From Gemmatimonadota bacterium (GTDB lineage: Bacteria; Gemmatimonadota; Gemmatimonadetes; Longimicrobiales; Gaopeijiaceae), in contig JAJDTB010000035.1 in assembly GCA_022827345.1 (NCBI GenBank), positions 62,001 to 126,000 on the forward strand: DNA of 64,000 nucleotides. The letters run 5' to 3'. Of this stretch, positions 58,547 to 64,000 are shown piece by piece. The notes beneath the pieces were generated by a model, which saw nothing but the letters and a program-made list of their open reading frames with translations, had not been told where the DNA came from and ran no database searches. The position numbers and the translations under genes are program-made. Positions within the stretch are counted from its first letter, which is position 1; each line of letters opens with the position of its first letter.

Positions 58547-59230
58547 ATGAAGAACCTCCCACTCGCAACCTGTGCCGTGATCGCTGGCGCACTCGCCATG
58601 GGCGCCTGTGCGCCGGGCGGCGATGCGCCTGAACCCGAGGCGGAGCAGGCCGCCATGACCTTCTTCATCACCAGCGCGGGCCCGGGAGACGGCGCCAACC
58701 TGGGCGGACTCGAGGGGGCGGACGCCCACTGCGAGACGCTGGCTTCGGCCGTTGGCGCCGGCGGCATGGGCTGGATGGCGTACCTCAGCACGATCGGGGA
58801 GGACGGCGGCGGCGCCGTGAACGCGCGCGACCGGATCGGGATGGGGCCGTGGCACAACCAGGCGGGCGTGCTGATCGCCAACAACGTCGACGAACTGCAC
58901 TCCGACGCGGCCAACCTCACCAAGGAGACGATCCTCACCGAGAACGGCGACATGGTGAACGGCCGCGGCGACGACCCCAACATGCACGACATCCTGACCG
59001 GTTCGAACATGGACGGAACCGCGTTTACCGGCGAAGACTACGACAACTGCGGCAACTGGACGAGCAACGGCGAGGACGGCAGCGCGGCGGTGGGTCACCA
59101 CGACCGCACCGGCGGCGGCCAGAACCCGGAGTCGTGGAACTCGGCCCACGCCTCGCGCGGCTGCAGCCAGGAGAACCTGCAGGGGACCGGCGGCAACGGC
59201 TTCTACTACTGCTTCGCGGCGGGGAATTGA
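58547..59230 (+). CDS. Lectin-like (endostatin-fold) lipoprotein
   Basis: 227 residues with a lipoprotein signal ending ALAMGAC. The mature domain has the pattern FFITSAGPGDGANLGGLEGA, then AHCETLASAVGAG, GWMAYLSTIGEDGGGAVNAR, DDPNMHDILTGSNMDG, DNCGNWTSNGEDGSAAVGHH and WNSAHASRGCSQENLQGTGG. This resembles the C-type-lectin/endostatin-like fold of bacterial DUF1554-type proteins, held by two disulfides. The ligand is unknown. The next gene overlaps its stop by one base (TGATG). Confidence 0.8.
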   Translation: MKNLPLATCAVIAGALAMGACAPGGDAPEPEAEQAAMTFFITSAGPGDGANLGGLEGADAHCETLASAVGAGGMGWMAYLSTIGEDGGGAVNARDRIGMGPWHNQAGVLIANNVDELHSDAANLTKETILTENGDMVNGRGDDPNMHDILTGSNMDGTAFTGEDYDNCGNWTSNGEDGSAAVGHHDRTGGGQNPESWNSAHASRGCSQENLQGTGGNGFYYCFAAGN

Positions 59231-60060
59231 TGCGGGGGACACCGGCGCTGCTGGCCGTACTCACGCTTGCGGGGTGCACCGCCCAGGACACCTCCGAAGT
59301 TGACTCCGGGGCAGTTGCCGGGTCGGAAGAGACCGGCACCGTCTTCATCGAGGAGATGACCTGGACCGAGATCCGCGACGCGATCGACGCCGGCATGACC
59401 ACGGTGATCCTGCCCACCGCCGGGACCGAGCAGAACGGGCCCCACATGGTGATGGGCAAGCACCGCTACATCATCGAGGAGGCCAGCGACCGCATCGCGC
59501 GCGAGCTCGGCAACGCCCTGGTCGCGCCGACGGTGACCTACGTGCCGGAGGGCGACGTGGACCCGCCGTCGGGGCACATGCGCTTCGCCGGCTCGATCAC
59601 GCTGCCGAACGAGTTCTTCATGAAGCTGGTCGAGTACGCCGCCCGCAGTTTCCGCGTCCACGGCTTCACCGACATCGTCTTCATCGGCGACAGCGGCGGG
59701 AACCAGCGGGGGATGCAGGCCGTCGCGGAGCTGTTGAACGAGGAGTGGGGCGGCGATGGTGCGACCGTGCACTTCATCGGCGACTACTACGCGAACAACG
59801 GTTTCCGCGACTGGTTGATGCAACAGGGCGAGACGGACGAGACGATCGGGCGCCACGCGGGGATCTCCGACACTTCGATTCTGCTGTACGTGGAGCCGAA
59901 GCACATCCGCGAGGATCAGCTGGCACCGGGTGGCGGGTTTGAGAACAGCGGCGTTTCGGGGGATCCGACGAGGGCCTCGGCCGAGTACGGTGAAGTGGGC
60001 ATGGAGATGCGCGTCGATGCGGCGGTCAGGCAGATCCGGGCGGCGATGGGGTCGATGTAG
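59230..60060 (+). CDS. Creatininase-family lipoprotein with altered metal ligands
   Basis: About 276 residues with lipoprotein signal AVLTLAGC. The creatininase fold is seen in TVILPTAGTEQNGPHMVMGK, TYVPEGDVDPPSGHMRFAGS and IVFIGDSGGNQRGMQAVAE. Known family members bind metals through E-x-H (EQHGPH), an Asp in GTD and the His of NGHGGN. Here these read EQNGPH, GKH and GDSGGN, so three ligand positions differ. It could be non-catalytic or use a different metal arrangement. It lies in an exported-protein cluster just before the tandem family. Confidence 0.82.
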   Translation: MRGTPALLAVLTLAGCTAQDTSEVDSGAVAGSEETGTVFIEEMTWTEIRDAIDAGMTTVILPTAGTEQNGPHMVMGKHRYIIEEASDRIARELGNALVAPTVTYVPEGDVDPPSGHMRFAGSITLPNEFFMKLVEYAARSFRVHGFTDIVFIGDSGGNQRGMQAVAELLNEEWGGDGATVHFIGDYYANNGFRDWLMQQGETDETIGRHAGISDTSILLYVEPKHIREDQLAPGGGFENSGVSGDPTRASAEYGEVGMEMRVDAAVRQIRAAMGSM

Positions 60061-60076: not shown

Positions 60077-60403
60077 ATGAGACAGCGGGCGCGGTCGCGG
60101 GCAGGGTGGATTGCAGTGTTCGCCACCGCCGCCATTGTCCGACCCGCGGGGGGTCAGGAAAACGTGCCTCCGGTGCCGTCGTTCTCCCTCTCCGGGCATA
60201 TCATCGACGACTTCAACGGTGCCCCGGTGGTATCCGCGGTGGTAAAGGTCCCGCAGCTCAAACGGTACGTATTCTCGGACCTGCGAGGACGCTTTCACTT
60301 CCCCAACTTCCCCGAAGGCACATGGGACATCGTCGTCGAGATGCTGGGGTATCACACGCTCGAAGGATCGGTGATGGCGACGTTCCCGTGGGGACCCGGG
60401 TGA
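60077..60403 (+). CDS. Tandem paralogue 1: CarboxypepD-reg domain protein, C-terminally truncated
   Basis: 108 residues with an export signal (MRQRARSRAGWIAVFATAAI) and one carboxypeptidase-regulatory-like domain: SLSGHIIDDFNGAPVVSAVV, KVPQLKRYVFSDLRGRFHF, WDIVVEMLGYHTLEG. The three copies downstream continue for another 140 residues after this point. This copy ends abruptly with MATFPWGPG, and its stop overlaps the GTG of copy 2. It looks like a copy that lost its plug-like half by deletion and kept coupling to the next gene. Confidence 0.78.
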   Translation: MRQRARSRAGWIAVFATAAIVRPAGGQENVPPVPSFSLSGHIIDDFNGAPVVSAVVKVPQLKRYVFSDLRGRFHFPNFPEGTWDIVVEMLGYHTLEGSVMATFPWGPG

Positions 60404-61176
60404 GGGTGCACCGGGCATCAGCGAGGGTGCTGCTCGCACTGCTCCTGTCGGTTGCAGCCCCGGACCGTGGCACCGCGCAGGACACCGTCCCGCCACTCCC
60501 GACCTTCACGCTTACCGGCCAGATCGTCGACGCGCTCAACGAGGCGCCGGTCGTCTCCGCGGTGATCAAGGTCCCGGAGCTGAGGCGGTACGCCTTCTCG
60601 AACACGAACGGGCGTTTCCGGTTCGCCGACTTTCCGGAGGGGACGTGGAATGTCGTGGTCGAGATGCTGGGGTATCACTCGCTCGACGGTTCGATCACCG
60701 TGTCGGAAGGAAACGGGCTCCTCCTGAGACTTAATCCGAACCCGATCGCCCTGGAGGGCCTGCGGGTGCGCACCCGAGCCGAGGGGCTGCTCGACCGGAG
60801 GCGGCGGCGCTATCCGTTCCGCGTTACCACGATCTCGGCCCAGATGCTGGCCGACGCCGTGATCGGCGACCCCGCCGCGATCTTCAGGCGCAACGCCAAT
60901 GCGCCCGTCGTGGGGTGCGCGGATCGCCTCGGGCAATGGGTCTCGGGGGGTTGCTATTGGGGTCGCCGTGCGAGAAAGAGCCGCATCAAGGTCTTCCTTG
61001 ACGAAGGCCTGCTCCCTGGAGGAATGTGGGAGCTTTCGATCTTCCCGAAGCAGGATATCCATTCCATGGATTGGCTGAAGGACACCGGGGAGCTTCACGT
61101 CTACACCACATGGTTCATCGATCGCCTCAACAGGTCGCGAACGAGGCTGGCTCCGTTCAAGTGGCCGATTCCGTAG
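60400..61176 (+). CDS. Tandem paralogue 2: CarboxypepD-reg plus TonB-plug-like protein
   Basis: 258 residues from the GTG at 60400, with signal LLALLLSVAAPDRGTAQ. The regulatory-like domain spans about 35-115. The second half has a layout like a TonB receptor plug: ALEGLRVRTRAEG, PFRVTTISAQMLAD, DPAAIFRRNANAPVVGC, then IKVFLDEGLLPGG, ELSIFPKQDIHSMDWLKD and a final YTTWFIDRL. Two Cys (VVGC and GGC) are conserved among copies 2-4 and may form a disulfide. There is no barrel. It ends WPIP. Confidence 0.8.
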   Translation: MRVHRASARVLLALLLSVAAPDRGTAQDTVPPLPTFTLTGQIVDALNEAPVVSAVIKVPELRRYAFSNTNGRFRFADFPEGTWNVVVEMLGYHSLDGSITVSEGNGLLLRLNPNPIALEGLRVRTRAEGLLDRRRRRYPFRVTTISAQMLADAVIGDPAAIFRRNANAPVVGCADRLGQWVSGGCYWGRRARKSRIKVFLDEGLLPGGMWELSIFPKQDIHSMDWLKDTGELHVYTTWFIDRLNRSRTRLAPFKWPIP

Positions 61177-61189
61177 GGAGGCTGGTAGA

Positions 61190-61960
61190 GTGGGTACCAA
61201 GGTAGCGTTGATCGCACTGGCAGCCCTCGCGCCGGCGATGGCGTCAGGCCACGTCGCTGGCCAGGACACCATTCCGGCGCCGCCGACCTTCGTGCTCGCC
61301 GGCCAGATCGTCGACGCGTTGACCGAGACACCGGTGATCTCCGCGGTGATCAAGGTGCCCGAACTCAGGCGTTACGTGTTCTCGGATGTGAACGGGCGGT
61401 TCGCGTTTCCGGACTTCCCGGAGGGGACCTGGGAGATCGTCGTCGAGATGCTGGGCTACCACACGTTGGACGGTCCGGTGACGGTGGCGGCGGGAAACGG
61501 CCTTCTCCTGCGGTTGAATCCCGATCCGATTGCGCTCGAAGGACTGCGGGTGCGCACGCGCGCCGACGGTTTGCTGGCCGAGCGGCGACTCCGGATCCCA
61601 TACAAGGTGACAACCCTCTCCGCCGCGGTCTTCGCAAACAGCATCAACCCGGATCCCACCGCGGTTTTCCGGCGGAACTCCCGTTCATTCATCGTTCCGT
61701 GCCCGGAAACCGAGGAAGATCCCGACGAGCAGATGGCGCCAGGCTGCTTCATCACCCGGGGCCGACCCGCGAAGATCGTGGTGTATCTCGACGAGGGCCG
61801 GTTGCCGGAAGGAATGGTCCAGCTCACCATGCTGGATCAGCGCGACATCCATGCCATGGAGTGGATTCCGGAGATGGCCGAACTGCGCGTCTACACACGC
61901 CGCTTCATCGAAAAGCTGAACAGTTCGCAGATCAGCCTGTCGCCGCTGGTGTACCCGTGA
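61190..61960 (+). CDS. Tandem paralogue 3: CarboxypepD-reg plus TonB-plug-like protein
   Basis: 256 residues from a GTG start with signal LIALAALAPAMASGHVAGQ. The same two-domain plan is present: LAGQIVDALTETPVISAVIK, FAFPDFPEGTWEIVVEMLGY, then ALEGLRVRTRADGLLAER, the Cys pair (IVPC and APGC), VVYLDEGRLPEGMVQLTML and QRDIHAMEWIPEMAELRVYT. It is the most diverged of the long copies in the plug-like half, with an acidic insert (EEDPDEQ) between the Cys residues. Fourteen bases separate it from copy 2. Confidence 0.8.
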   Translation: MGTKVALIALAALAPAMASGHVAGQDTIPAPPTFVLAGQIVDALTETPVISAVIKVPELRRYVFSDVNGRFAFPDFPEGTWEIVVEMLGYHTLDGPVTVAAGNGLLLRLNPDPIALEGLRVRTRADGLLAERRLRIPYKVTTLSAAVFANSINPDPTAVFRRNSRSFIVPCPETEEDPDEQMAPGCFITRGRPAKIVVYLDEGRLPEGMVQLTMLDQRDIHAMEWIPEMAELRVYTRRFIEKLNSSQISLSPLVYP

Positions 61961-62035
61961 TTGGGCCCATGCGCCGGGGCGGTGCCAGGAGGTCTTTGTC
62001 GAGTTCTGATGACTATCGATAACGGGCGAAACTGA

Positions 62036-62806
62036 ATGACGCGACCCGGACCACTGCGATTTGCGGCGACCCTGCTGGCAGCAGGCACTGCGGCAGGCGG
62101 CGTCGCGGGACAGGACACGCTCCCGCCGGGACCGACCTTCACTCTCTCGGGCCAGATCGTCGACGCGCTGAACGATGCGCCCGTCGTATCCGCGGTGATC
62201 AAGGTGCCGGAGCTCAGGCGATACGTCTTCTCGAACACGAGCGGCCGCTTTCGTTTCCCCGACTTTCCGCAAGGGACGTGGAACATCGTGGTCGAGATGC
62301 TGGGGTACCACACCCTCGACGGCTCGATGACGGTCTCGGAAGGCAACGGGCTCCTCCTTCGGCTCAATCCGGACCCGATTGCGCTGGAGGGGCTGCGCGC
62401 GCGCAGCCGGGCGGCCGGACTGCTCGACAATCGGCGGCGGCGCTATCCCTTCCGCGTTACCACGATTTCGGCCCAGGTGATTGCCGACGCGGCGGGCCTG
62501 GACCCAGCCGCAATCTTCAAGCGGAATGCAAACTCCTACGTTACCGCCTGCTCGAACAAATTTGGAGAATGGGTGCTGGCGGGTTGCTTTTACAGGCGGA
62601 ACTACCTTCGCCCGATAACGGTATTCCTCAACGGCGGACCGGTTCTGGGCGGAATGCAGGAGCTGTCGATGTTCCCGAGGCAGGACATCCATTCGATGGA
62701 CTGGCTTAAGGACACCGGAGAGCTTCACGTTTACACGAAATGGTTCATCGATCGTCTCAACAAGTCTCGAACGAGGCTTGCACCGTTCAAGTGGCCAATC
62801 GGGTAG
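62036..62806 (+). CDS. Tandem paralogue 4: CarboxypepD-reg plus TonB-plug-like protein
   Basis: 256 residues with signal FAATLLAAGTAAGGVAGQ. It is close to copy 2: SGQIVDALNDAPVVSAVIK, FRFPDFPQGTWNIVVEMLGY, ALEGLRARSRAAGLLDNRRR, Cys pair (TAC and AGC), ITVFLNGGPVLGGMQELSMF, QDIHSMDWLKDTGELHVYTK. Its end (WFIDRLNKSRTRLAPFKWPI) is nearly the same as copy 2, so the two are recent duplicates or have exchanged sequence. It starts 75 bases after copy 3 with no obvious promoter. Confidence 0.8.
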   Translation: MTRPGPLRFAATLLAAGTAAGGVAGQDTLPPGPTFTLSGQIVDALNDAPVVSAVIKVPELRRYVFSNTSGRFRFPDFPQGTWNIVVEMLGYHTLDGSMTVSEGNGLLLRLNPDPIALEGLRARSRAAGLLDNRRRRYPFRVTTISAQVIADAAGLDPAAIFKRNANSYVTACSNKFGEWVLAGCFYRRNYLRPITVFLNGGPVLGGMQELSMFPRQDIHSMDWLKDTGELHVYTKWFIDRLNKSRTRLAPFKWPIG

Positions 62807-62856: not shown

Positions 62857-64000
62857 GTGCGCCGTTCGGGTCGTGTCGCACGATGCCGGCGGCGACATCG
62901 GTTGCTGGCCAGACTGGTCGTTGGAGGAGTGATTTCCGGCGCAATATCGGGCTGCACCCGCCAGGTCCCCGAAGCCCAGGCCCTCGGTGACCCGGTGCCG
63001 GGCCTGACGGACGACGAGCTTGCCCGCTTCGAAGCCGGACGGGCTCTTTTCGACCGGGTGTTTTCGGTGGAGGAAGGAACCGGGCCGCTCTTCAACGAGA
63101 ACCAGTGCAGCGCCTGTCACACGGTCCCGGCGGTTGGGGGGACGGGGGAACAGCTCGTCATCAAGGCCACCAGGCGGCGAGGGGACGGCAGCTGCGACAT
63201 CCTCGCGAGCGAGAGCGGCGAGAACCTGCGGCGGCAGGCAACCCCCGTCCTCGCCCGGCACGGCATCGAGCGCGACACGCTCCCGTCCGCGACGGCCGAC
63301 ATCGCCACCTTCTCGGTCCCCTTCCTCTTCGGGCTCGGCGCGGCCGACCTGGTCCCGGAGGACGCCCTGCGCGCCGCCGCCGATCCCGACGACGCGGACG
63401 GCGACGGCATCTCGGGCCGGGTCGGCCTCACCCCGGACGGCCGCGTCGGCCGTTTCGGGCGGAAGGCCGACGTAGCCTCCCTGCACGACTTCACGCACCT
63501 CGCCTTCTTCAACGAGATGGGGATCACCACCACCTCACACCCCGTCGAGCGCGGGCCGAACGGGGCACCGCTTCCACCCGGCACCGATCCCGCGCCCGAC
63601 CCCGAGATCGACGACGCCTCCGCCGACCTCATCACCGACTTCGTGCGCATGCTCGCCCCCCCACCCCGCCCCACACCCACCCCCGACGCGGCCGCCCTGA
63701 TCGAACGCGGCGAAGCCCTCTTCACCGCCACCGGCTGCGCCGCCTGCCACACGCCCCACGTCACCACCGGCCCGTCCGCCGTCGCAGCCCTCGACCGCGT
63801 CCGCGCCCGCCTGTACTCCGACCTGCTCCTCCACGACCTCGGCCCCGCCCTGGCCAGCACCTGCGCCCCCGGCGCCTCCGAGACCGAATACCGCACCGCG
63901 CCGCTCCTCGGCCTCGCGGCCAGGCGCAGCTACCTTCACGACCTGCGCGCCTTCAGCCTGGAGCGCGCCATCGAACTGCACGGCGGCGAGGCGCAGGGGG
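62857..64000 (+). CDS. Di-haem oxidoreductase (DHOR, DUF1111-like), lipoprotein, truncated by window end
   Basis: The frame runs off the window; 381 codons are seen. From a GTG at 62857 with GAGGGG about 8 bases upstream, the N-terminus is basic (VRRSGRVARCRRRH) and then gives a lipoprotein signal VVGGVISGAISGC. Two c-type haem motifs follow, CSACH (from residue 84) and CAACH (from residue 294). Between them lie PFLFGLGAADLVPEDAL and DDADGDGISGRVGLTPDGRV, typical of the DHOR/MauG-related family. The role is probably periplasmic peroxidase or electron transfer. It starts 50 bases after tandem copy 4 on the same strand. Confidence 0.88.
   Translation, partial: MRRSGRVARCRRRHRLLARLVVGGVISGAISGCTRQVPEAQALGDPVPGLTDDELARFEAGRALFDRVFSVEEGTGPLFNENQCSACHTVPAVGGTGEQLVIKATRRRGDGSCDILASESGENLRRQATPVLARHGIERDTLPSATADIATFSVPFLFGLGAADLVPEDALRAAADPDDADGDGISGRVGLTPDGRVGRFGRKADVASLHDFTHLAFFNEMGITTTSHPVERGPNGAPLPPGTDPAPDPEIDDASADLITDFVRMLAPPPRPTPTPDAAALIERGEALFTATGCAACHTPHVTTGPSAVAALDRVRARLYSDLLLHDLGPALASTCAPGASETEYRTAPLLGLAARRSYLHDLRAFSLERAIELHGGEAQG

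Follow-up and report, generated by a model that had tools for sequence, protein, structure and literature searches.

Tandem exported proteins in a Gemmatimonadota genome that carry a TonB-receptor plug domain and end where the barrel would begin

The plug of a TonB receptor is a cork in the receptor pore, on which the TonB motor pulls. In SusC BT1763 the N-terminal extension (NTE) is followed immediately by the TonB box, VDEVVV, which mutation has shown to be needed for growth on levan (PMC7782687). The plug of FhuA is fixed to its barrel by residues R93 and R133 (PMC11658791), while the isolated plug of FepA is described as unfolded in a passage of the same paper that cites Usher et al. 2001. 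Open questions in this field are what purpose the NTE of SusC serves and whether the plug is still folded as one unit when it leaves the barrel (PMC7782687, PMC11658791).

The window analysed here is a stretch of 64,000 nucleotides which forms positions 62001-126000 of contig C5 in a 4.8-Mb draft genome, and it contains, at 60077-62806, four tandem paralogues, all of them open frames on the plus strand. The features of this array are given below in window coordinates; copy 4 is the protein that was taken for models and searches.

60077..60403, plus strand: copy 1, export signal and CarboxypepD_reg (NTE-like) domain only, 108 aa
60400..61176, plus strand: copy 2, export signal, CarboxypepD_reg and plug domain, 258 aa, GTG start
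60730..60768, plus strand: copy 2, segment at the TonB-box position, LNPNPIALEGLRV
60775..61134, plus strand: copy 2, plug domain
61190..61960, plus strand: copy 3, export signal, CarboxypepD_reg and plug domain, 256 aa, GTG start
61514..61552, plus strand: copy 3, segment at the TonB-box position, LNPDPIALEGLRV
61559..61927, plus strand: copy 3, plug domain
62036..62806, plus strand: copy 4, export signal, CarboxypepD_reg and plug domain, 256 aa
62141..62353, plus strand: copy 4, CarboxypepD_reg/NTE domain, aa 36-106 (Pfam, model and Foldseek)
62363..62401, plus strand: copy 4, TonB-box position: conserved segment, predicted to be flexible, aa 110-122, LNPDPIALEGLRA
62408..62767, plus strand: copy 4, plug domain, aa 125-244, without the GP..LYG loop
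62549..62551, plus strand: copy 4, Cys172 of the conserved pair
62585..62587, plus strand: copy 4, Cys184 of the conserved pair

Every copy begins with a signal-peptide-like N-terminus that ends near AQ/GQ-D and has no lipobox Cys, and the CarboxypepD_reg domain exceeds the Pfam cut-off in copies 1-4 (E 3e-10 to 7e-12). A fifth, full-length copy, 71% identical to copy 4, lies past the window end (contig 126068-126877, equivalent to window 64068-64877), behind a di-haem oxidoreductase gene. Copies 2-5 continue for about 140 residues beyond CarboxypepD_reg. Copy 1, a truncated paralogue, is without these residues and ends near the end of that domain, as if its second half had been deleted; it is 49-52% identical to copies 2-4, its N-terminus resembles that of the middle array copy in three related genomes (G013, G015 and G020), and its stop overlaps the GTG start of copy 2 (GTGA). 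The identities of copies 2 and 3 to copy 4 are 75% and 58%. A simple scan for promoters and terminators was uninformative.

Since the Pfam Plug model (PF07715) matches only copy 4 of the window copies, and weakly (13.9 bits against a cut-off of 23.9), the assignment of the second domain required evidence from profiles and from the fold. Across the family, Plug is matched at E<=0.1 in 7 of 40 members, with a best value of 9.9e-8. When the profile of the second domain was compared by hhalign with that of 19 receptor plugs from the same genus, the two aligned colinearly over 115 columns with a probability of 97.8% and an E-value of 1.1e-12, where the highest value from 60 column shuffles was 0.4% and reversing the profile gave 0.2%; with the close family alone the value was 65.9%, against controls of at most 0.9%. 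A search by Foldseek with the full-length model of copy 4 returned only CarboxypepD-type domains at the top, its matches including the NTE of SusC BT3090 (PDB 9hfj), and the second domain was therefore modelled alone. AlphaFold2, run on it without templates, gave a pLDDT of 89.6 and a pTM of 0.84, and the top 14 PDB matches to this model are all TonB-dependent receptors, with probabilities of up to 1.00; SusC, RagA, BtuB, CirA, FhuA, ChuA and PirA are among the receptors matched. The Foldseek E-values are modest (3e-3 at best) and the TM-scores about 0.4-0.5, which show the predicted structure to be that of a modified plug. Two individual alignments link the family to receptors: a protein encoded elsewhere in the genome (C19:91972) is related to copy 4 (E 4e-16) and also passes the Pfam threshold for Plug with 34.6 bits, and in a tblastn search residues 41-225 of copy 4 align in one stretch with an annotated Hymenobacter TonB-dependent receptor (E 8e-4). 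The second domain is thus a TonB plug, homologous to those of receptors and of the same fold. A sequence-profile search against PDB chains matched nothing relevant, and NCBIfam gave only matches below its cut-offs.

The plug of these proteins departs from that of a receptor in three respects. One striking deletion stands out in the alignment, where the loop GPAA-TLYG-EA, which precedes the last plug strand, has been lost: the GP..LYG motif is present in 18 of 19 receptor plugs and in 0 of 40 family members. Second, a pair of cysteines (C172 and C184 in copy 4), both retained in 35 of 40 members, brackets a loop of variable length; these are often the sole cysteines of the mature protein, and to judge from this pattern they probably form a disulfide. 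Third, the proteins stop about 20 residues past the last plug strand, after a short helix and a Pro-containing tail, and PF00593, the barrel domain, has no match at the array. Stabilising changes are plausible in a barrel-less plug, because the isolated FepA plug is unfolded according to the passage cited above, and the loss of the loop and the Cys pair are two changes that would suit an existence without a barrel. A preliminary description of this DNA had recognized four adjacent paralogues with an export signal and a carboxypeptidase-regulatory-like domain, a plug-like second domain arranged as at the N-terminus of SusC, a conserved Cys pair and an end at the point where the barrel would begin; all of these points are borne out by the frames, the Pfam matches, the colinearity with receptors and the two checks that it had proposed for the plug part, profile comparison and structure prediction. 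In a divergent subtype, seen in the first array copies of loci L079, L081, L086, L091 and L092, Tyr replaces the first Cys, and a longer C-terminal tail carries an extra Cys and a motif resembling TYKTRLxRRRN.

The segment LxPDPIALEGLRV joins CarboxypepD_reg to the plug domain. Among the 10-residue blocks of the mature protein, residues 108-117 have the highest conservation (3.06 bits), and in the model of copy 4 residues 111-120 have the lowest pLDDT of any block outside the termini (67). A stretch that is conserved yet predicted to be flexible is best explained by binding. The sequence LEGLRV differs from the textbook TonB box; receptors of the same genus have LEGVIVTG, LEGIIATG and LDQIVVTG at the aligned place. 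TonB is a candidate partner of the LxPDPIALEGL segment, and TonB proteins are available, since the genome contains seven TonB_C matches above the cut-off. The conservation of LEGLRV could alternatively serve the packing of the two domains against each other.

Compared with the SusC/RagA transporters (BT1763, BT3090 and RagA), the array proteins have the same order of NTE (CarboxypepD_reg), TonB-box position and plug, and a plug that is homologous in sequence and fold, but they are barrel-less (256 against about 1000 aa), are without the GP..LYG loop, and have a Cys pair and soluble export with no lipobox. By homology the family is to be placed with the plugs; lacking a barrel, it does not count among the TonB-dependent transporters. 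Its domain is homologous to PF07715, whose cut-off some members exceed or approach, but the plugs of this family are freestanding, shortened and mostly under that cut-off, so that domain searches usually report CarboxypepD_reg alone. The isolated FepA plug, an experimental construct, is likewise a plug without a barrel; it is unfolded by the account in PMC11658791, whereas the array proteins are predicted to be folded. The individual domains are known, and no description of barrel-less plug proteins or of a phylum-wide standalone NTE-plug family was found in the open-access literature; a standalone family with these common changes is apparently undescribed and unnamed.

Freestanding plugs are a recurrent feature of this genome: of its 61 Plug matches, 14 are without a PF00593 barrel in the vicinity, and half of these 14, seven, are in frames of <440 aa. 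A second barrel-less type lies on the minus strand past the window end, as a frame of 436 aa (contig C5:126936-128243; L039:10936-12243) with CarboxypepD_reg, a full Plug match (45.5 bits) and a Gly/Ala-rich C-terminal part that is probably membrane-associated. It has the two-domain order of the array proteins and a Cys pair before the VYLDG strand, and differs from them in keeping the full plug end and in its extra C-terminal part. In several genomes of the genus this type, 70-77% conserved, lies between the array and SusC.

Of the 121 genomes in the taxonomic family, 29 have relatives of the array proteins at E <= 1e-20; these include most genomes of the genus, and there are single copies in other genera. 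At E <= 1e-15 the wider protein family is present in 290 of 297 genomes of the phylum, often in multiple copies and again in tandem. Across the genus the array has 1 to 5 copies. Tandem runs found elsewhere comprise five members in G303 and three or four in G003, G334 and G023; since G303 belongs to a different taxonomic family (G303:C306:31369-35895, L153), free plugs in tandem are found repeatedly in the phylum. The genome studied here has nine full-length members. Orthologous arrays are present in many genomes of the genus, well beyond what chance would produce. In the tree, copy 3 groups with its orthologue, the first array copy of G015 (99/98), and copy 5 with the third (93/95), while copies 2 and 4 form a pair (87/90) near the middle copy of G013; at least three paralogue types are therefore older than the split of the related species. 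Identities among the full-length array paralogues are 76-87% in the first domain and 46-72% in the second, which thus diverges faster, and the earlier suggestion of diversification within the array holds. Some middle copies (in G017, G026, G029 and G032) were flagged as containing one TGA, but these are apparently terminal stops that fall within the match, and the frames end there.

These features suggest how the proteins might act. The array would encode soluble proteins, exported by the Sec route and probably resident in the periplasm, which are built from the three leading modules of a SusC-type transporter (NTE, TonB-box segment and compact plug) minus the barrel. A disulfide between the paired cysteines would close the variable loop and help the plug to stay folded without a barrel; the flexible LxPDPIALEGL segment would remain available for contact with TonB, and specificity could come from the NTE and the plug. 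The proteins would then be adaptors addressed to TonB, or competitors for it, which modulate which receptor or exported system TonB serves. That these are periplasmic free plugs which have kept the segment as a contact to TonB and so modulate or redirect TonB action is the reading that we tentatively prefer, as a real possibility that falls short of being probable on the sequence evidence. Several observations count against it: LEGLRV departs from the textbook TonB box, copy 1 is without both the TonB-box segment and the plug, and the distant members sampled lie away from tonB and receptor genes. A broader version, in which the phylum as a whole has a multi-copy class of free NTE-TonB box-plug proteins that are soluble periplasmic clients of TonB or titrate it, is more doubtful; if it is true, one branch of TonB biology in Gemmatimonadota does without a barrel in the outer membrane.

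The neighbourhood of the array bears on this question, and the relevant genes in the window are as follows.

58547..59230, plus strand: exported protein with no Pfam match ('lectin' label), conserved upstream neighbour
59203..60060, plus strand: creatininase-family exported lipoprotein, 16 bp upstream of copy 1, adjoining the array in nearly all related loci
62875..64000, plus strand, running past the window: di-haem oxidoreductase (DHOR) between copies 4 and 5, start codon uncertain

In nearly all loci with enough sequence the upstream order is NHL-repeat protein, 'lectin'-labelled exported protein, creatininase-family lipoprotein and array, and this order is also found in two other genera (L084 and L085), with L083 as the exception. 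The lipoprotein carries the motif GTEQNGPHMVMGKH, in which the His and Asp that we would expect from the canonical metal-binding motif look replaced. Downstream, part of the genus has the di-haem oxidoreductase, the minus-strand barrel-less plug protein, SusC, SusD and erythromycin-esterase-like genes, and other members have a PepSY protein instead. A SusC/SusD pair, in which SusC has its own plug, follows the array in at least seven genomes of the genus and is absent in others, and about half of the loci of the genus have no adjoining receptor. The linkage to the exported creatininase-like operon is thus steadier than the linkage to SusC/SusD, which is partial. The distant family members that were sampled have no tonB or receptor genes nearby; one orthologous group has fumarase, short-chain dehydrogenase and AP-endonuclease-like neighbours. 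Because the surroundings of distant members are so varied, the idea of reading a common function from them was rejected.

This steady linkage favours a reading in which the NTE and plug have been repurposed as a soluble periplasmic or secreted binding or scaffold module with no role for TonB, which at this locus serves the creatininase-like operon, the copies being, for instance, ligand- or partner-binding subunits that differ in specificity. Operon-like spacing (16 bp from the creatininase gene to copy 1, and then a 4-bp overlap, 13 bp and 75 bp between copies) fits such a module, as does the greater variability of the second domain, which would be expected if each copy had a different partner. 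It leaves unexplained, however, why the segment at the TonB-box position should be the most conserved of the protein, and since relatives in the phylum have other neighbours, the operon link is not the general role of the family. We regard a binding module without TonB as nearly as likely as the TonB-engaging role.

The preliminary description had also suggested that free plugs might regulate or block receptors. Action on barrels in trans, as spare or inhibitory plugs, as receptor caps or as the plug half of a split receptor, would be in keeping with the finding that the whole plug of SusC BT1763 can leave its barrel in vitro (PMC7782687) and with the SusC/SusD pair downstream of some arrays. 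This proposal fared poorly and we consider it improbable: the genome has 49 PF00593 barrel matches, each with a plug nearby (0 of 49 plugless), and receptor genes adjoin the array in some genomes of the genus only, with none close to the distant relatives that were sampled. Blocking in trans is weakened further by the missing GP..LYG loop, the region into which we take FhuA R93 to fall. The split receptor was rejected as unlikely, as no plugless barrel was found among these 49 matches.

A further alternative is that the array consists of decaying remnants of duplicated receptors which have lost the barrel, and the truncation of copy 1 and the variation in array size across the genus might be taken in this sense. 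Orthologues in several genera nevertheless share their end point, dN/dS values between orthologues (0.12-0.24, Nei-Gojobori) indicate purifying selection, ancient paralogue types have been kept, and the family is nearly universal in the phylum, all of which makes decay very unlikely and disfavours a reading of these proteins as broken receptors. They are almost certainly free-standing NTE-plug proteins under selection. That the second domain is merely plug-like and has an unrelated fold is scarcely credible: window copies under the Pfam cut-off and a PDB profile search that matched no chain speak for it, but hhalign, Foldseek on an untemplated model, the bridging family member and the Hymenobacter alignment all point to a plug.

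A natural barrel-less family with NTE, TonB-box segment and plug provides soluble proteins on which TonB binding and plug folding could be measured directly. For annotation, the consequence is that entries labelled with CarboxypepD_reg only can conceal plug domains, across most Gemmatimonadota. Other loci in the same genome contain related frames. A cluster of three more family members lies on contig C13:241668-248637 (L040), where a 58-aa frame (C13:246898-247032) that matches only the last 45 profile positions is perhaps the remnant of a further copy. On contig C42:1035-1979 (L046:978-2045), a frame of 375 aa has two CarboxypepD_reg domains followed by a Cys-bearing plug and no barrel.
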